DNA from: a virus
IMG/VR virus record: IMGVR_UViG_3300017773_000028
Location: 1 to 43,767 of that record
Strand: one strand, 5' to 3'
DNA: 43,767 nucleotides
Shown piece by piece: positions 1 through 6,220 of this stretch; the stretch's first letter is position 1; every line of letters begins with the position of its first letter. The notes beneath the pieces were generated by a model that worked only from the letters and a program-made list of their open reading frames with translations, made no database searches and was not told the origin of the DNA. The position numbers and the translations under genes were made by a program.

Positions 1-17
1 ATTAAATAGTTTTGCTT

Positions 18-25
18 TATATTTG
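18..25 (+). promoter_or_regulatory. Bacteroidetes-type -7 promoter element
   Basis: TATATTTG matches the Bacteroidetes sigma -7 consensus TAnnTTTG exactly and lies 35 bases before the first rightward gene. The expected -33 TTTG element would fall off the left edge, so only half of the promoter can be tested. It is the best candidate for driving the early rightward gene block. Confidence 0.6.
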
Positions 26-60
26 CACTAACAATAAACATTTTATAAATTATTTTTACT

Positions 61-363
61 ATGATAGCAACAATTAAAAACGAATTATTATCTCATATTG
101 AAGATTATAACAACGAAGATAAAAATCATTACACAATGTTCAACGAAGATTATTATATAATCGGATATTGTAAGGCAGATAATTGGCTAACAAAGCACGG
201 CTTAAACGTGTTTGAGGCAATAAGAATTTGCAACGACTACGAACAGGAGCATTTCGGAGAGATACAAACCACTTTCGACAATGCCGAAAAATTAGTAAAT
301 CATCTTGTTTATTGGTACGGACAAGACCTCTGCAACGAGTTGGATTTACCTTTCGATAGATAA
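61..363 (+). CDS. small early protein of unknown function, 100 aa
   Basis: First gene of the rightward block. It starts with ATG 35 bases after a good TAnnTTTG element, in an AT-rich leader with no Shine-Dalgarno site. The product is acidic and soluble-looking, rich in Asn, Asp, Tyr and Glu, with no membrane segment and no motif I recognise. The stretch NWLTKHGLNVFEAIRI may form a helix. As the promoter-proximal early gene it could act in host takeover, but that is inference only. Confidence 0.75.
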   Translation: MIATIKNELLSHIEDYNNEDKNHYTMFNEDYYIIGYCKADNWLTKHGLNVFEAIRICNDYEQEHFGEIQTTFDNAEKLVNHLVYWYGQDLCNELDLPFDR

Positions 364-377
364 AAATTAATATTAAC

Positions 378-395
378 AGGGGTGGAAACACCCCT
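378..395 (+). promoter_or_regulatory. GC-rich stem-loop with GAAA tetraloop between early genes
   Basis: AGGGGTG (378-384) pairs perfectly with CACCCCT (389-395) around the loop GAAA. This 7-bp stem stands out in very AT-rich DNA between the first two early genes. No T-run follows on the plus strand, so it is not a classic intrinsic terminator. It could be an mRNA stabiliser, a processing site or an attenuator. Confidence 0.55.
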
Positions 396-410
396 ATAAA
401 ATCAAATCAA

Positions 411-626
411 ATGAAAACAAATTTAATAGAAAATATATCACAAATTGGAAACGCTGAACAAACAACATTCGGCTCATATTATTCTCAATTATCACAAGCA
501 TTAAAAGAACATTGCGACAGCTTAACAGATGATGACATCCACGAATTAATTTGTCGGCTTGAATTTTATATCGAGCATCAAATAAAAGAGATAACAAGCG
601 ATTACGAATATTTAAATAACAAATAA
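411..626 (+). CDS. small acidic early protein of unknown function, 71 aa
   Basis: ATG start in the leader AATCAAATCAAATG, 16 bases after a GC-rich hairpin. The product is acidic and predicted helical (SQLSQALKEHCDSLTDDDI), with no membrane segment and no recognised domain. The next gene begins one base after its stop codon, so the two are probably translated together. Confidence 0.65.
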   Translation: MKTNLIENISQIGNAEQTTFGSYYSQLSQALKEHCDSLTDDDIHELICRLEFYIEHQIKEITSDYEYLNNK

Positions 627-627
627 A

Positions 628-906
628 ATGGAACAAGACCAGATATATATAGGAACAATGGAAGGTAAACAAAAGGAAATTGATAGACTTCAAAAACAGG
701 TTAGAATATTACAATTAGATTTAGAATGTGAGAGGTTACAATCCGATTGGCTTGATTCCCTTGCTAATTTTCATCGAGATGTTAATTATGATACGTGGGA
801 CAGAGAACGCATTGATGAGGCTCAAAATGAAGTAGATGAATTATATAATTATTATTGTGAGAGAAAGAAAAAAGCTAACATTCATAAATCTGAAATACTT
901 GCGTAA
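628..906 (+). CDS. small coiled-coil early protein, 92 aa
   Basis: Begins one base after the previous stop. Residues 10-40 (GKQKEIDRLQKQVRILQLDL and onward) have the heptad spacing of a coiled coil, and the rest is charged and helical with a basic tail. No enzymatic motif is seen. It is followed by an 80-base gap holding a tRNA-like hairpin. Function unknown. Confidence 0.65.
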   Translation: MEQDQIYIGTMEGKQKEIDRLQKQVRILQLDLECERLQSDWLDSLANFHRDVNYDTWDRERIDEAQNEVDELYNYYCERKKKANIHKSEILA

Positions 907-912
907 AACAAA

Positions 913-956
913 TGATAAAATGGTTCAGTGAGGGGGTTCGATTCCCCCTTTATCAA
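913..956 (+). ncRNA. tRNA minihelix-like element (acceptor stem plus T arm only)
   Basis: TGATAAA (913-919) pairs over 7 bp with TTTATCA (949-955). Directly 5' of the latter is a perfect T arm, GGGGG-TTCGATT-CCCCC (932-948), and A956 sits at the discriminator position. Between acceptor and T arm there are only 12 nt (ATGGTTCAGTGA), which resemble the start of a D arm. The rest of the D arm, the whole anticodon arm and the variable loop are missing, and no CCA is encoded. It is either an internally deleted tRNA gene or a dedicated minihelix RNA. Confidence 0.6.
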
Positions 957-985
957 CTAACTTAAAAACCAATAAATAAATAGAT

Positions 986-1183
986 ATGAAAAAAATACAA
1001 AACATTATGCTTTCACTTGTGTGGCTATTCCTTATGTCAGCTATATCAAGATTAATTATAGCACTTATAAAAGATGTTGAAAACATACAACAGGGAATTG
1101 TTATGACAGGATTTGTCCTGTTCATCAGCCTGTTAATGTTTGCATCAGGTAAATTATTGTATGACTTAATACTTAATAAATAA
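986..1183 (+). CDS. small two-helix membrane protein, 65 aa
   Basis: Two hydrophobic segments, roughly residues 7-25 (MLSLVWLFLMSAISRLIIAL) and 39-60 (GFVLFISLLMFASGKLLYDL), flank a short polar loop, so an inner-membrane hairpin protein is predicted. The next gene follows after 6 bases behind the repeated leader AATAAATAGATATGAAAAA, which also precedes this gene. The function is unknown. Membrane proteins in early blocks can be exclusion factors or small lysis proteins, but nothing here decides between these. Confidence 0.65.
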   Translation: MKKIQNIMLSLVWLFLMSAISRLIIALIKDVENIQQGIVMTGFVLFISLLMFASGKLLYDLILNK

Positions 1184-1189
1184 ATAGAT

Positions 1190-1435
1190 ATGAAAAATAT
1201 TTTAGATAAAGCATTAGACAAAATAGATAGAGAAACCCTCGACAATATTGGTAGAGGGAACACTATCCTATTGAACGAAAGATATGAACTATATTCATAT
1301 TGGGATATGGATTACTATGTGATTATAGACACCTTTATAGATGAAGAAATATTTTGCGTTCAATATGCCGATAATAATGAAGTAATGTTTACTGATTTTT
1401 ACGGCTATGAAGAAATAGAACAAACATTAACTTAA
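1190..1435 (+). CDS. small acidic protein of unknown function, 81 aa
   Basis: ATG start behind the leader AAATAGATATG, the same leader as the gene before it. The product is acidic and Tyr-rich, with alternating strands (RYELYSYWDMDYYVIIDTF) that suggest a small beta-rich fold. No recognised motif. It is part of the tightly spaced early cluster. Confidence 0.65.
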   Translation: MKNILDKALDKIDRETLDNIGRGNTILLNERYELYSYWDMDYYVIIDTFIDEEIFCVQYADNNEVMFTDFYGYEEIEQTLT

Positions 1436-1446
1436 ACTATATAATT

Positions 1447-1725
1447 ATGAAAAATATAAAAGTAAGACAATTAAGAAGTAATTCCGGAAATCCTGTTGCA
1501 AATCAATTTGAAATCTACACCGATAAAGGAACGTATTTTCAAAGCTACAATTCAATAATAGCCTTTAAACCTTACAACAGGAAAGAAACTATATTAGATG
1601 AGTTTTATTGGGATTATTCCAGAACAACAGGTAAATATAGAAATATGTTTATGGGAGAGGGAATAGCTGAAACCAGAAAGAAAATAAAAGAAGGTATTTA
1701 TAAATTAAAAGATTTAAATAAATAA
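1447..1725 (+). CDS. small basic protein of unknown function, 92 aa
   Basis: Basic protein with a beta-strand-rich start (VRQLRSNSGNPVANQFEIYT) and a phrase, FQSYNSIIAFKP, that I associate with small phage proteins of about 100 residues of unknown role. No catalytic motif or membrane segment. It sits 11 bases after the previous gene and 3 bases before the next. Confidence 0.65.
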   Translation: MKNIKVRQLRSNSGNPVANQFEIYTDKGTYFQSYNSIIAFKPYNRKETILDEFYWDYSRTTGKYRNMFMGEGIAETRKKIKEGIYKLKDLNK

Positions 1726-1728
1726 CTC

Positions 1729-1926
1729 ATGATAACAAAAACAATAAAATGTCAAGGTCAATGTGTCTCTTGTTTAAGTGAAAATATTGAATATGATTCA
1801 TTTGAGTATGAAGGAGATTATGGCTATTATCCTTATGAGTGCAACGAATGTGGTAATGAGGGTAGAGAATATTTTGAATTAGTATATGATGTAAGTTCAA
1901 CAAGGATAAAGAATAATAACTTATGA
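1729..1926 (+). CDS. zinc-ribbon protein, 65 aa
   Basis: Two Cys pairs, CVSC (residues 12-15) and CNEC (38-41), spaced as a classic four-Cys zinc ribbon, with an additional Cys at residue 8. Between them is an acidic Tyr-rich strand region. Zinc ribbons of this size often bind nucleic acid or RNA polymerase, but no target can be read from the sequence. The stop overlaps the next start (ATGA). Confidence 0.65.
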   Translation: MITKTIKCQGQCVSCLSENIEYDSFEYEGDYGYYPYECNECGNEGREYFELVYDVSSTRIKNNNL

Positions 1927-2120
1927 AAACACAAATAGAAATAATCTGGTCAGTAGAGGATATTAGATCTTTAGGATATATCTGCACAGACCAACAAGGT
2001 ATGGAAGTATTGGAAATGTTAAAAGAGTATCACGATTGCAATTATGGTATTACTTGGGCAACAATAGATAATGCCTGTGAGTCATTTGGTTTGAAATCAA
2101 AAAATAAAAAATATTTTTAA
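1923..2120 (+). CDS. small protein of unknown function, 65 aa
   Basis: Coupled to the previous gene through an ATGA overlap. The pattern IIWSVEDIRSLGYICTDQQG followed by MEVLEMLKEYHDCNYGITWA looks like a small helical protein recurring in Bacteroidetes phages; this is a memory-based impression without a search. No catalytic motif. Confidence 0.6.
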   Translation: MKTQIEIIWSVEDIRSLGYICTDQQGMEVLEMLKEYHDCNYGITWATIDNACESFGLKSKNKKYF

Positions 2121-2122
2121 CT

Positions 2123-2290
2123 ATGAAAAGATTTTTAGGAATAGAACAAAAGAAAATATATAGACAATTAAAACCATTATGCAAGTTTTGTGGTAGTGAT
2201 GAATTAGTATATCATCAGTATGTTATATGCGATTATTCCTGTCAAACTTGTGGCGAATGGCAAAATGGAGAATATATAGAAACTAAATAA
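2123..2290 (+). CDS. short zinc-ribbon protein, 55 aa
   Basis: ATG AAA start two bases after the previous stop, ending two bases before the next start, in the same direction and spacing as its neighbours. The 55-residue product carries CKFC (residues 20-23) and CQTC (40-43), a four-Cys zinc ribbon separated by a beta-hairpin-like segment. It resembles the zinc-ribbon protein two genes upstream, though the sequences outside the Cys pairs differ. Confidence 0.6.
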   Translation: MKRFLGIEQKKIYRQLKPLCKFCGSDELVYHQYVICDYSCQTCGEWQNGEYIETK

Positions 2291-2292
2291 CT

Positions 2293-2490
2293 ATGGAAGA
2301 ATTAAAATTAACAATAGATCAAGAAAGCGTTAATGTCTATATAGATAATGGCGAGGATAAAGAGCCAACTCATATATGTTATTGGCATATTGAAGAATGG
2401 GAAGAAGATAGTAGTGTAGCCATATCAATATTTAATGCTATTCAATTATATTATACTAACCCAAAAAAATTACTTAAACTATTAAACTAA
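2293..2490 (+). CDS. small acidic protein of unknown function, 65 aa
   Basis: Acidic, with a strand-rich first half (MEELKLTIDQESVNVYIDNG), then ICYWHIEEWEED and a helix ending in basic residues. No known motif. It ends a run of four tightly packed genes, and the 62-base gap after it holds a promoter-like element. Confidence 0.6.
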   Translation: MEELKLTIDQESVNVYIDNGEDKEPTHICYWHIEEWEEDSSVAISIFNAIQLYYTNPKKLLKLLN

Positions 2491-2500
2491 ATAAAGTGCA

Positions 2501-2509
2501 TAAAATTTG
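2501..2509 (+). promoter_or_regulatory. possible promoter -7 element
   Basis: TAAAATTTG in the gap before the next gene resembles TAnnTTTG with one extra base, and shares ATTTGCA with the element near position 20. No clear -33 TTTG is seen about 20 bases upstream. It may be a weak internal promoter of the early block. Confidence 0.3.
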
Positions 2510-2552
2510 CATAACTTAATTATAACTACTACATTTACTTAAAATTACAATT

Positions 2553-2807
2553 ATGGCAGATAAAAAAAATTTATCAGAAATAGAATTAGAAAGATTAATA
2601 CATCTTTCATCAAAAGTATTAGAATATGTTTACATTCCGGAATACGAGGACTATTTTAATCAATCAAGATTAGATGATAGCTTTCGTGATGATCAGAATG
2701 ATGATTGGATAATTGAGGATAAACTTAATGATAGCGATCATATATTTAAATATATCTATAATTTAAAACAATTAATAACTAAAATTAAATCAAATGGGAA
2801 CACGTAG
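2553..2807 (+). CDS. small acidic protein of unknown function, 84 aa
   Basis: ATG start behind AAAATTACAATT. Very acidic (DDSFRDDQNDDWIIEDKLND) and helical, with no domain I recognise; highly acidic small early proteins are sometimes DNA mimics, but that is speculation here. Its C-terminus TKIKSNGNT is encoded by a 20-base sequence that also serves as the leader of the next gene, which overlaps it by 14 bases. Confidence 0.6.
   Translation: MADKKNLSEIELERLIHLSSKVLEYVYIPEYEDYFNQSRLDDSFRDDQNDDWIIEDKLNDSDHIFKYIYNLKQLITKIKSNGNT
2777..2796 (+). repeat. direct repeat copy 1, gene-junction leader
   Basis: AACTAAAATTAAATCAAATG here is identical to 3177-3196. In both places it encodes TKIKSN at the end of the upstream gene and ends in the ATG of the next gene, so it doubles as coding sequence and translation leader. 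Confidence 0.7.
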
Positions 2808-3201
2808 TTTAACACATATCATTGAAGATGATAAAACTTTAGCCACTATATATAGACAATATGACGGCTATTTGTCTGGACACGGACAAGATCTTGCAGA
2901 ATTTCTACAATCTATGAAAATTGTAAATGGCTTTAGTAGTGATCAAAGAGACATTGCAAACGGAATGGGTTGTTTATCTGCTCAAATTATATCACACTTA
3001 AAACAGGGTGTAGGTAATATATATTTATATCCCCCTAATAGCAAAGATTGTTGGGAAGAATATACTTATCACGTTTACAACGAAAAAATGGGAGAGGGTG
3101 TGAAGATAAAAGCAATTAGAAAAAATTACGAGAGTGATGATGAGATTGTTTTTGAGGGAACGCCAGAAGAATTATTAACTAAAATTAAATCAAATGCCTA
3201 A
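2794..3201 (+). CDS. conserved phage protein of unknown function, 135 aa
   Basis: The N-terminus MGTRSLTHIIEDD followed by IYRQYDGYLSGHG and DLAEFL is a pattern I have seen in small proteins of unrelated phages and plasmids, with no assigned function. The remainder has a strand-rich region (VGNIYLYPPN, EYTYHVYNEK). It ends in TKIKSNA, again encoded by the leader of the following gene, which overlaps it by 8 bases. Start chosen at ATG 2794 because MGTRSL is the typical N-terminus. Confidence 0.75.
   Translation: MGTRSLTHIIEDDKTLATIYRQYDGYLSGHGQDLAEFLQSMKIVNGFSSDQRDIANGMGCLSAQIISHLKQGVGNIYLYPPNSKDCWEEYTYHVYNEKMGEGVKIKAIRKNYESDDEIVFEGTPEELLTKIKSNA
3177..3196 (+). repeat. direct repeat copy 2, gene-junction leader
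   Basis: Identical 20-mer to 2777-2796, at the junction of the next gene pair. It encodes TKIKSN and supplies the A/T-rich leader and ATG of the gene starting at 3194. Confidence 0.7.
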
Positions 3202-3799
3202 TCACGTATATAATTGGATTTCGGTTGAAGAAAAGTATGCCGAAAAAATAGAAGAAATAGCTAAGGTTGGACTTGCACAATACTATAAGCCAATGCCAAA
3301 GGAATTAGAAAAAACAACATTTCCGGATGAAACAATGACCAAAAAAAGATCAGATCATCTAATAAAACTTTACGGACATAATAATTGGTACGAATGGGCG
3401 ATAGATAATTGGGGTACTAAATGGGGTTGTTATGATAATGAATATGACAAGGTTGATATGTACACATATACTACGGCTTGGTCTCCTCTGGATATGGAGT
3501 TGTTGGATATGTTGGCAAAAGATATACCTACTTTCTGCTTTGGTTGGGAAGAAGAACAGGGGTTTGGTCAAGAGTGGGAATATAAAAATGGTTTTTCAAG
3601 ATTAGATCTGGAGTGGGATTTACCGGAGTGGAAAGAAACGGATGTTGAGGGGGTTTGTTACCTGTCTGAAGCATACGAAAATCCAGAGGGCAAATATGAA
3701 GTCGGCTACTATTGTGAATATAGTTTAAACGAGTGGTTGGCTTATGATTTTGATAATGCAGTAAAAGAATACAAGTCATTAACAATAACTGAAGTTTAA
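3194..3799 (+). CDS. YubB/DUF1281-like phage and plasmid protein, 201 aa
   Basis: Starts MPNHVYNWI, and the centre reads WYEWAIDNWGTKWGCYD (residues about 62-78) followed by TAWSPLD. This is the signature I associate with the DUF1281/YubB (ferredoxin-like fold) family found on plasmids and phages; its biochemical role is not established. Trp, Tyr and acidic residues are abundant, with no membrane segment. It overlaps the previous gene by 8 bases. Confidence 0.7.
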   Translation: MPNHVYNWISVEEKYAEKIEEIAKVGLAQYYKPMPKELEKTTFPDETMTKKRSDHLIKLYGHNNWYEWAIDNWGTKWGCYDNEYDKVDMYTYTTAWSPLDMELLDMLAKDIPTFCFGWEEEQGFGQEWEYKNGFSRLDLEWDLPEWKETDVEGVCYLSEAYENPEGKYEVGYYCEYSLNEWLAYDFDNAVKEYKSLTITEV

Positions 3800-3885
3800 T
3801 AAAAATTTAGTGCGACAAGTATAAAAAAACTATGTTGGTGGAATTGTCCGAAAAATCACACACTAATTTTTTAATAATTAAAAAT

Positions 3886-4125
3886 ATGAAAACAATAGAA
3901 AGGTTTGAAACAGACAATGGGTATTGCTTTAAAGATTATAAAGCGTTTGAAAGCAAAAAAGGTATATGTTATGTTCCGGAATTGACCGATCATAAATACA
4001 CTTACAATGATTTTCTGGAGATAGCAAAGAACAATAAAGAGTTGGCTCAAATGCTATTTGATTTTGTTGATTGGCAACATCCGGAAACTTTATATAATGA
4101 ATTATTAATTGAAGAAGAAATATAA
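3886..4125 (+). CDS. small conserved phage protein, 79 aa
   Basis: I choose the ATG at 3886, behind a T/A-rich leader, rather than the in-frame ATG at 3832, because MKTIERFETDNGY looks like a natural N-terminus and the 18 extra residues do not. Residues 27-79 read as GICYVPELTD, YTYNDFLEIA, then LFDFVDWQHPETLYNELL, a pattern common in small phage and plasmid proteins. Function unknown. It ends 4 bases before the next start. Confidence 0.65.
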   Translation: MKTIERFETDNGYCFKDYKAFESKKGICYVPELTDHKYTYNDFLEIAKNNKELAQMLFDFVDWQHPETLYNELLIEEEI

Positions 4126-4129
4126 TATT

Positions 4130-4438
4130 ATGAAAGTAAAAATTATGCAACGAAGTGTGTACCATAAGTACGCAGAAAAAGAATATGAAATAGATAAGAA
4201 AAAGTATTTGGAATATCTGGAAGAAAACGGCAAGAATGAGAATGGAGAATATTATCACGATCTCCAAGACTATATTTTAGATAACGAAGATGTCTGGGTG
4301 GATGATATAGATCACGAAATAAATAAGGCAGAGTTTGTTTTTGGCAGAGGTATGGATAGTGGGGGTTGGACAGATAAAGATCAAGATTCTGAGTGGAGAT
4401 ACGAATGTGAAGAATTAAAAATAGGGGGACACTTATGA
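4130..4438 (+). CDS. small acidic protein of unknown function, 102 aa
   Basis: ATG 4130 is chosen over an in-frame TTG at 4109, which would overlap the previous gene. Charged helical protein (EYEIDKKKYLEYLEENGKNE) with a Gly/Trp-rich end (FGRGMDSGGWTDKDQD). No known domain. It overlaps the next start through ATGA. Confidence 0.6.
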   Translation: MKVKIMQRSVYHKYAEKEYEIDKKKYLEYLEENGKNENGEYYHDLQDYILDNEDVWVDDIDHEINKAEFVFGRGMDSGGWTDKDQDSEWRYECEELKIGGHL

Positions 4439-4719
4439 ATAGTATGGAAAAACTTTATAGAGAAAATAAAAAACTCAAATCTAAATTAGAGTGGTTTAAC
4501 CTGTTTGTAGATTATATTCAGCATTGCAATAGAAATTTATATAATTCTGCTTGTAAATATGCAGACAATGAAGATCTTACAGACAATGGTCTGAGTGTAG
4601 AAGAAGTAAAAGAGTATTACCTTAACACCGGTTTTCCGGAATACGAAGAAGAGCCGTACACCTCATATACAGATGAAGATTGGATTGAACATGCCAACGC
4701 AAATGATTTAGAAAGATGA
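4435..4719 (+). CDS. small protein of unknown function, 94 aa
   Basis: ATGA-coupled to both neighbours. The N-terminal 25 residues (MEKLYRENKKLKSKLEWFN) form a probable coiled coil, followed by an acidic Tyr-rich tail. A second ATG at 4444 (MEKLYRE) is equally possible as start. No functional motif. Confidence 0.6.
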   Translation: MNSMEKLYRENKKLKSKLEWFNLFVDYIQHCNRNLYNSACKYADNEDLTDNGLSVEEVKEYYLNTGFPEYEEEPYTSYTDEDWIEHANANDLER

Positions 4720-4922
4720 AAATTATAGAAGAAAAAAATAATATTAAAACTTATGAAGTAGAATTTTGGTTTCTACATTTTATAGGAGATGAGGATTGTG
4801 GCTACGACTATGATCGTGTTCACGTTCAAGCAATTAGCCCTCGACAAGCGATCAAAAAAGCTGAGCAGTTGGCTCCTTTGGGTGCAAAAAAATTTGAAAT
4901 CATTAGGTTTTATAAAAAATAA
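4716..4922 (+). CDS. small protein of unknown function, 68 aa
   Basis: ATGA overlap with the previous gene. Beta-rich N-terminal half (IKTYEVEFWFLHFIG) followed by the helix VQAISPRQAIKKAEQLAP and a final strand. The strand-helix-strand layout suggests a small alpha/beta fold, but no family is recognised. Confidence 0.6.
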   Translation: MKIIEEKNNIKTYEVEFWFLHFIGDEDCGYDYDRVHVQAISPRQAIKKAEQLAPLGAKKFEIIRFYKK

Positions 4923-4943
4923 ATACTAAGTTTACGCACATAT

Positions 4944-5132
4944 ATGAAACATTTTATGAATAACGGAAAGGAATATTTAAGGTCTCGCCAAGAAGATTTA
5001 AGATACAGGCAAGGCAGATCACGTAGACAGCGTGAAGGTCATTATAAGTTTCTGGATTTGTTGTTGGTTTCAGGTGGGTTATGTTTTTTTGCCTTCCTTA
5101 TATTTACTTTAATACAAAATTTAATTAAATGA
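4944..5132 (+). CDS. small membrane protein with basic N-terminal region, 62 aa
   Basis: Arg-rich N-terminal 34 residues (RSRQEDLRYRQGRSRRQREG) precede one hydrophobic segment of about 22 residues (FLDLLLVSGGLCFFAFLIFT). This predicts a single-pass inner-membrane protein with its basic end in the cytoplasm. Start at ATG 4944; ATG 4956 is an alternative. It overlaps the next gene by 4 bases (ATGA). It could be a small lysis or host-shutoff factor, but there is no direct evidence. Confidence 0.6.
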   Translation: MKHFMNNGKEYLRSRQEDLRYRQGRSRRQREGHYKFLDLLLVSGGLCFFAFLIFTLIQNLIK

Positions 5133-5524
5133 TAAATTATGACAATGATGATAATATCTGGTACACAAATCACACCGGTATAGAAAAAGAAGATCATCTA
5201 AGAACAGATTACTCTACTGCTGATCTTATAAAAAAAATAAGTGGAGATGTTACTATGCTTTTACTTACAAAAAATAAAGCTTACGGAGATACGGCTAATC
5301 ATCCCCCTAACATATTTTCAAAACTTACTGCAACTGAGGGGATTTTAGCTCGAATTGATGACAAGCTTTCTCGTATAAAAAAGTTAGGTTTTGAAAATTA
5401 TGATAGAAGTGAAGATACTTTACAGGATCTTATTGGGTATTTAATCTTATTGAAAGTTCAGCTAACAAAAGAGCAGAATAAAATTAAAAAAACAATATTA
5501 GATAATAAACCTAAAATTAAATGA
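5129..5524 (+). CDS. NMAD1/DUF1599-family nucleotide-modification-associated protein, 131 aa
   Basis: Contains KNKAYGDTA (residues 48-56), GILARIDDKLSRI (71-83) and DLIGYLILL (100-108), the conserved blocks I associate with DUF1599, also called nucleotide modification associated domain 1. The acidic/basic helices resemble all-alpha NTP pyrophosphatase folds, and members are often found beside phage nucleotide-metabolism genes. No partner base-modification enzyme is visible in this window. The protein ends in KIK, encoded by the leader of the next gene. Confidence 0.7.
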   Translation: MINYDNDDNIWYTNHTGIEKEDHLRTDYSTADLIKKISGDVTMLLLTKNKAYGDTANHPPNIFSKLTATEGILARIDDKLSRIKKLGFENYDRSEDTLQDLIGYLILLKVQLTKEQNKIKKTILDNKPKIK

Positions 5525-5826
5525 AAAAAGAAATATTTAACAATTACGCTAATGCAGTTGCAAAACAATTTCATCTGGAATTAGATCAAATGTTTTCTAA
5601 AAACAGAAGAAGAGATATAGTAGATGCACGACAGATGTTATATTATTTATGTATGGAAAGACCTATAAGAATTTCTTACATACAAAGATTTATGGCAGAG
5701 CAAGGTTGTGATGTTTATCACACCACTATTATGCACGGCTACAAAAAAGCAAAAGAACTTATAGATCAAGACAAAGATTATCAAAACATTGTAGATCTAA
5801 TTAATTCCACAAATGCCGTTCACTAA
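5521..5826 (+). CDS. DnaA domain IV-like DNA-binding protein A, 101 aa
   Basis: Residues 28-77 match the C-terminal, box-binding domain of DnaA: basic NRRRDIVDARQMLYYL (28-43), then a helix, then YHTTIMHGYKKAKEL (66-80), corresponding to the DHTTVLHA signature of the helix-turn-helix. The AAA+ domains of DnaA are absent. It probably binds DNA in the phage or host origin, either recruiting replication factors or titrating host DnaA. It sits before the recombination genes. A second protein with the same signature is encoded at 12269-12682. Confidence 0.7.
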   Translation: MKKEIFNNYANAVAKQFHLELDQMFSKNRRRDIVDARQMLYYLCMERPIRISYIQRFMAEQGCDVYHTTIMHGYKKAKELIDQDKDYQNIVDLINSTNAVH

Positions 5827-6220
5827 AAAAGAAATATTACATCAAGCTTTACAGGATCAAAAATGTATCAAGTCTATAATGCCTAAGGGAATATCTGTTA
5901 TAGGGCGTGGTGTAAAAATTCAAGAGTTTGATAGTAAGATTGAAATACTTAATATGGGTAAAGGTGGAGATTACTTTAAGGAGTGTGTTGAAGAAGAGTA
6001 TAATTATTTTTATGAACATGGGTGGCAAAGAGGTGCATTAAGTATAAGTCTTAATAATTGTATCTTCAAGTTAAAACTTATTGAGGGTAGAATAAAAACT
6101 GAACTTAACACCAGAAAAAACGACAAGCATATACAGAATTTAAAAAACAGAAGAGAAACTTTATTAAATAAATATTCAAATATAAAAACACAAATAAATA
6201 AATTAAATGGAAACAAATAG
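5813..6220 (+). CDS. protein of unknown function with C-terminal coiled coil, 135 aa
   Basis: Overlaps the previous gene and the next gene by 14 bases each. The N-terminal half (residues 1-75) is mixed alpha/beta with no motif I know. From about residue 84 the sequence (LKLIEGRIKTELNTRKNDKH onward) is a Lys-rich coiled coil that ends in KLNGNK. Position between a DnaA-like protein and the annealing protein suggests a replication or recombination role. Confidence 0.6.
   Translation: MPFTKKEILHQALQDQKCIKSIMPKGISVIGRGVKIQEFDSKIEILNMGKGGDYFKECVEEEYNYFYEHGWQRGALSISLNNCIFKLKLIEGRIKTELNTRKNDKHIQNLKNRRETLLNKYSNIKTQINKLNGNK

Follow-up and report, generated by a model that had tools for sequence, protein, structure and literature searches.

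A conserved, tRNA-shaped element of about 43 nucleotides recurs in phage genomes, and that it constitutes an RNA class of its own is, in our judgement, nearly certain. We describe it from the copy at positions 913–956 (+) of the window, by which we mean the whole 43,767-bp stretch analysed, an IMG/VR virus record from a phage akin to flavobacterial phages (primase phrog_28855, terminase phrog_6681, portal phrog_6547). Direct reading confirmed the preliminary description of a minihelix with a perfect acceptor, a perfect T arm, a discriminator A and a 12-nt connector: the element reads TGATAAA-ATGGTTCAGTGA-GGGGG-TTCGATT-CCCCC-TTTATCA-A and is followed by CTAA at 957–960. The two acceptor strands on the plus strand (TGATAAA, 913–919; TTTATCA, 949–955) are Watson–Crick paired at 7 of 7 positions and belong to a helix that covaries in the family. 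Between them lie the connector (920–931), whose GG at 922–923 is invariant or nearly so in two family alignments, and the T arm (932–948), which consists of a GGGGG/CCCCC stem (932–936/944–948) and a 7-nt TTCGATT loop (937–943). The ACTA at 956–959 corresponds to a discriminator followed by a degenerate CCA-like tail (N73-C74-N75-A76). On the same strand, a small open reading frame (ORF) of 92 amino acids (628–906) ends 6 nt upstream of the element and a small hydrophobic ORF of 65 amino acids (986–1183) starts 29 nt downstream, both of them without a PHROGs match.

The structure is not a chance product, as the preliminary description had argued. A structural scan of both strands gave this single match in the window; 60 Markov shuffles of the window together yielded one match of whatever kind and no match whose connector contained GGT. 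The family covariance model, whose training set includes the window copy, scores that copy at 51–57 bits. The element shares with tRNA genes the acceptor and T arm, the 12-bp stack and the TTCRANN loop, and with its 12-nt connector it lacks the D and anticodon arms of a four-arm cloverleaf; ARAGORN called no tRNA genes in the window. A search of the window with Rfam 15 returned a T-arm match to transfer-messenger RNA (tmRNA) and a chance match on the reverse strand, both below their gathering scores. The tmRNA match (RF00023) covers only model positions 347–363 (17 nt, 16.7 bits against a gathering score of 47), and the element gives no full RF00023 match with a tag reading frame. No family was matched at the gathering threshold by Rfam 15 in window positions 1–6000 and seven loci that bear the element. 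The 12-bp T-stem/acceptor ruler and T loop that characterize RNase P substrates (PMC4919913) are both present; where substrates pair with RNase P RNA through a 3′ RCCA, the main subfamily has an N-C-N-A tail and the short-connector subfamily lacks one. The element also has what RNase Z recognizes, a T arm and acceptor without CCA (PMC7479834), the tail of the window copy being ACTA.

In a 61-nt context, the minimum-energy fold of the window copy favours an alternative UGGUU/AACUA pairing, which on this prediction could compete with the minihelix in that copy. Tails like ACAA or ACGA disrupt the UGGU/A-C-U-A pairing in other copies, so it is not a conserved feature. A short peptide (ATG ATA AAA TGG…TAA, 17 codons) was considered as a product of the region and rejected, since its frame is lost in loci L082 and L083, where the connector is 2 nt shorter. 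An antisense ORF runs across the T arm (window 925–1263, −) and ends in GGIEPPH, a peptide common in antisense readings of this sort; this ORF is presumably a spurious gene call.

BLAST against INPHARED found no DNA-level relatives for the window or the upstream ORF, and we therefore turned to profile and pattern searches. An exact search of viral_contigs with the 3′ 20 nt of the element returned only two further contigs, both minihelices, whose connector is shorter by two bases and whose flanking sequence differs. A looser pattern (ATGGTTC, 0–14 nt, GGGTTCRANTCCC) matched at least 120 stretches. Where no gap followed ATGGTTC, the match was an ordinary tRNA with this motif in its variable loop and was left out; many of the remaining matches listed are minihelices with other acceptors, such as AACTAG…CTAGTT, TATCTG…CAGATA, AGAGTC…GACTCT and AAGATA…TATCTT. 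The architecture shared across IMG/VR is an acceptor strand of about 6 bp, a connector of the form AATGGTTC..., a T arm with a TTCGAYT loop, and the returning acceptor strand. A covariance model built from 32 copies found 81 places in 59 other loci. Applied to the 80 nearest primase relatives (window excluded), the same model found the acceptor/T-arm pair with a short connector in 13, all on the early-gene strand. The weakest of these 13 matches reached only E < 1; with a second model, extended to the 3′ tail, 12 relatives matched at E ≤ 0.011 and the thirteenth at 0.25. Most virus records carry one to four copies (E ≤ 0.05), and the element is also present in Wildcat-like mycobacteriophages. 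Several phages carry multiple copies (L280, L218, L189, L197 and L112); the three in L280 have an identical acceptor (GCCTG/CAGGC) and several in L197 are near-identical, suggesting duplication within a genome.

The fold is supported by strong covariation. Across aligned model matches, 11 of the 12 pairs vary on both sides, and the covariation score was 0.615, against 0.147 (s.d. 0.013) for shuffled alignments and 0.12–0.28 for slid partners. When the register was left free, 92% of real copies had at least five Watson–Crick acceptor pairs, compared with 5% when halves were swapped between loci; the low acceptor-helix percentage in the alignment (67.5%) arises because copies differ in register. 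Invariant or nearly so are the connector GG, which is preceded by AT, the T loop (TTCRANT) and the G–C pair that closes it. The letters of ATGGTTC are conserved partly by construction, because the seeds were found with that motif, and in copies found by structure alone and in a hold-out set the sequence after GGT varies. The connector had been described as the start of a D arm. This is not simply so: the connector is conserved in its own right across the family and carries a near-invariant GG. That GG (922–923 in the window) may stand in for G18–G19 of the D loop, and would then dock on the T loop.

Copies also keep the dimensions of a tRNA. The total duplex in the main set is 12 bp (11–13), with a variable split between acceptor and T stem, and a stacked length of 12 ± 1 bp matches that of tRNA. 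Counting from the T loop, position +14 is C in 63% of copies and +16 is A in 65%, these being the positions of C74 and A76 in tRNA, and +15 is mostly T or A. C at +14 together with A at +16 was found in 35 of 65 copies, whereas no other offset tested gave more than 9. The middle tail position is C in 3 of the 35 N-C-N-A copies, making the tail CCA-like and rarely CCA. The hold-out set was fetched separately with a different pattern (ATGGTG) and comprised 70 distinct non-tRNA matches, 49 of which form an acceptor of 5 bp or more; duplex length was tested in 47, and 46 of them gave 12 or 13 bp. An N-C-N-A tail was present in 10 of 16 long-connector members of this set, against 3 of 31 in a short-connector subfamily, whose tails include ATTG and TTAG among others. 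The fold and the ruler are therefore general and the tail is not, and we dropped N-C-N-A as a universal feature.

The element was nearly absent from host genomes. A strict pattern run on 84,980 prokaryote genomes hit two contigs, one clear (Dysgonomonas, L203) and one doubtful (Bacteroides pyogenes, L204). The same pattern fits about 20 viral matches among those listed (counted by eye) and misses the window copy, which has a longer connector. The covariance model, under strict filters at which weak matches are lost, found the element in 2 of 295 Bacteroidia genomes. It is therefore essentially a phage feature.

Copies lie on the coding strand, in the gaps between neighbouring genes. Only 16% of main-set copies fall within a same-strand ORF of at least 100 amino acids, compared with 54% of random positions (ORFs here being mechanical rather than curated genes). 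The main-set element lies a median of 12 nt 3′ of a stop and a median of 34 nt (interquartile range 29–58) 5′ of the next start; lone tRNAs in the same loci are placed more loosely (median 77 nt, interquartile range 34–244). For the window copy and those of the 12 relatives listed, the next ATG is 17–54 nt downstream and the genes that follow are varied; one gene family follows the element in L054 and L063 and stands without it in the window. The upstream stop overlaps the element in 15 of the 56 main-set copies with a detectable stop, and overlaps or lies inside it in about 15 of 26 short-connector copies. The idea that T(A/G)A before ATGG serves as the upstream stop codon was rejected, as it is true in only 5 of the 56 main-set copies.

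In MaryV, an annotated Mycobacterium phage of the Wildcat type, copies occupy unannotated gaps of the leftward early operon and are followed by a second hairpin and then by the Shine–Dalgarno-like GGAGAGAA; other gaps of that operon have plain hairpins at the same place. Across MaryV positions 69,575–74,664 (L207/L206), most gaps hold a minihelix or a plain hairpin, often with the second hairpin and then GGAGAGAA, and four hold a variant in which the connector has an extra 5-bp hairpin and the 12-bp duplex is divided into 8+4 bp. A separate observation concerns a block of about 84 nt in the window (3800–3883), flanked by a stop (3799) and the following ATG (3886). The block is 85–89% identical in five distant relatives (L061, L014, L033, L055 and L059), where neighbouring sequence is about 70% identical, and 81% identical over 57 nt in L058. 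It contains nested stems (TTAGTG/CACTAA and GACAA/TTGTC), the latter with two compensatory pairs in L058, and has no Rfam match. It is probably another structured RNA between genes, and is possibly pseudoknotted.

To account for these properties, we tentatively favour a reading to which we give somewhat less than an even chance: that the elements form an undescribed, phage-restricted class of minimal tRNA-shaped RNAs, in phages of at least Bacteroidota and Actinomycetota, through which host maturation enzymes punctuate polycistronic messages. The element has the fold of a tRNA's top half, with a 12-bp acceptor/T-arm stack, T loop, GG and often an N-C-N-A tail, and if transcribed within a polycistronic early mRNA it would be taken in cis for a pre-tRNA. 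In the window, RNase P would cut at 912/913, RNase Z after 956, or both, detaching the upstream message and leaving the downstream one with a new 5′ end some 30 nt ahead of its start codon, to the presumed benefit of the phage. What is known of these enzymes bears on the proposal from both sides. The RNase P ruler matches the T-stem-loop/acceptor unit, without any need for the D loop (PMC4919913); in Bacillus subtilis, RNase Z makes contact with just the acceptor stem and T arm, and CCA under Mg2+ inhibits it about 1,500-fold, and most RNase Zs require a mature 5′ end first (PMC7479834). In copies that overlap or contain the upstream stop, 5′ cleavage would leave a non-stop upstream message, and the need for a mature 5′ end means that RNase Z alone is not an easy solution either. 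These two difficulties leave room for a role in cis without cleavage, or for a decoy acting in trans.

In the former case, to which we give about one chance in four, the tRNA-shaped structure would protect message ends or control downstream translation, through re-initiation or access to the ribosome site, and might be bound by a host or phage protein. The uniformly short spacing ahead of the next start codon, the stop codon inside many short-connector copies and the mixture of plain hairpins and minihelices at the same place in Wildcat-like gaps all agree with such a role, but a plain hairpin would suffice for it, and the retention of the 12-bp ruler, the T loop and the GG would go unexplained. 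It is unlikely, and slightly more so, that the excised minihelix of about 43 nt accumulates as a free RNA that titrates an enzyme binding the T arm or elbow (RNase P, RNase Z, TrmA, TruB, the CCA-adding enzyme or EF-Tu) or a host defence protein sensing the shape of tRNA. A decoy would fit a shape that stays fixed while the acceptor sequence varies, the one to four copies per genome, and a main-subfamily tail that is CCA-like but rarely CCA; against it, the tight 17–54-nt spacing to the starts of varied genes and the abutting upstream stops suggest action in cis, and neither a promoter nor a terminator is obvious for the window copy itself.

Readings that would make the element a remnant fare far worse. 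Real tRNAs occur in the same early region of relatives L005 and L034, and the preliminary description had allowed for a tRNA gene that recently suffered an internal deletion; yet the same short form recurs in dozens of unrelated phages with different, compensated acceptors, covariation is far above control, the exact 3′ part is found in only two other viral contigs (both minihelices), and no full-length tRNA with the same acceptor turned up. Recurrence and covariation together refute a degenerate tRNA, which we regard as very improbable. An attachment-site relic or an intrinsic terminator is likewise refuted, and more improbable still. Phage attachment sites often carry tRNA 3′ halves, and the preliminary description had named such a relic as an outcome that would count against a functional RNA; here, relatives keep both halves, the 5′ half being present and covarying, a scan of 17 window proteins revealed no integrase, and the element is all but missing from host chromosomes. 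As for a terminator, the T arm does form a G+C-rich hairpin, but no terminator-like site was called at the element and no T run follows the hairpin. The suggestion of a tRNA-derived regulatory RNA or of a mimic directed at tRNA-processing enzymes, by contrast, finds support in its substance, with the between-gene position now added to it. On the further suggestion of a mimic directed at a host toxin, the results speak neither for nor against.

Structures that are tRNA-like and read by tRNA enzymes are already known, and it is the between-gene mini form in phages that is apparently undescribed; we found no earlier description of it in the open-licence PMC literature. Like the tRNA minihelices used as RNase P model substrates, the element stacks an acceptor on a T arm over 12 bp, with a T loop and no D or anticodon arms. 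Those substrates are engineered or excised pieces, whereas the phage elements are natural, covarying loci that lie between genes; their tail is usually not CCA, and their connector is conserved and contains GG. The tRNA-like domain of tmRNA (RF00023), to which the T arm gives its local match, likewise has an acceptor and T arm without a D stem, and a G-rich D-loop segment follows its acceptor; the phage element differs in having no mRNA-like domain and no conserved G3–U70 alanine identity pair. In tRNA punctuation, tRNAs or tRNA-like structures between genes direct cleavage of polycistronic RNA by RNase P and RNase Z, as do the t-elements of plant mitochondria. The phage elements differ in belonging to phages of bacteria and in being about half the size, and cleavage is proposed for them. 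The phi80-induced RNA and the C4 antisense RNA of P1/P7 are phage non-tRNA RNAs cut by host RNase P, according to the passages that cite them in PMC4919913 and PMC11143913, but they are single special RNAs rather than a widespread between-gene element. Precursors of phage T4 tRNAs, in which UAA takes the place of CCA (PMC11143913), similarly have tRNA-like termini without an encoded CCA, but are full tRNAs with anticodons.

Message-cutting, tRNA-shaped signals have been known from mitochondria, along with a few single phage RNAs cut by RNase P. If the punctuation reading is true, phages would possess a general means of dividing polycistronic messages with enzymes indispensable to the host, and there would be an explanation for gaps that otherwise carry no annotation in many phage genomes. 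The family offers dozens of natural minimal substrates for probing the needs of RNase P, RNase Z and elbow-binding proteins, and its covariance model can be used by annotators.
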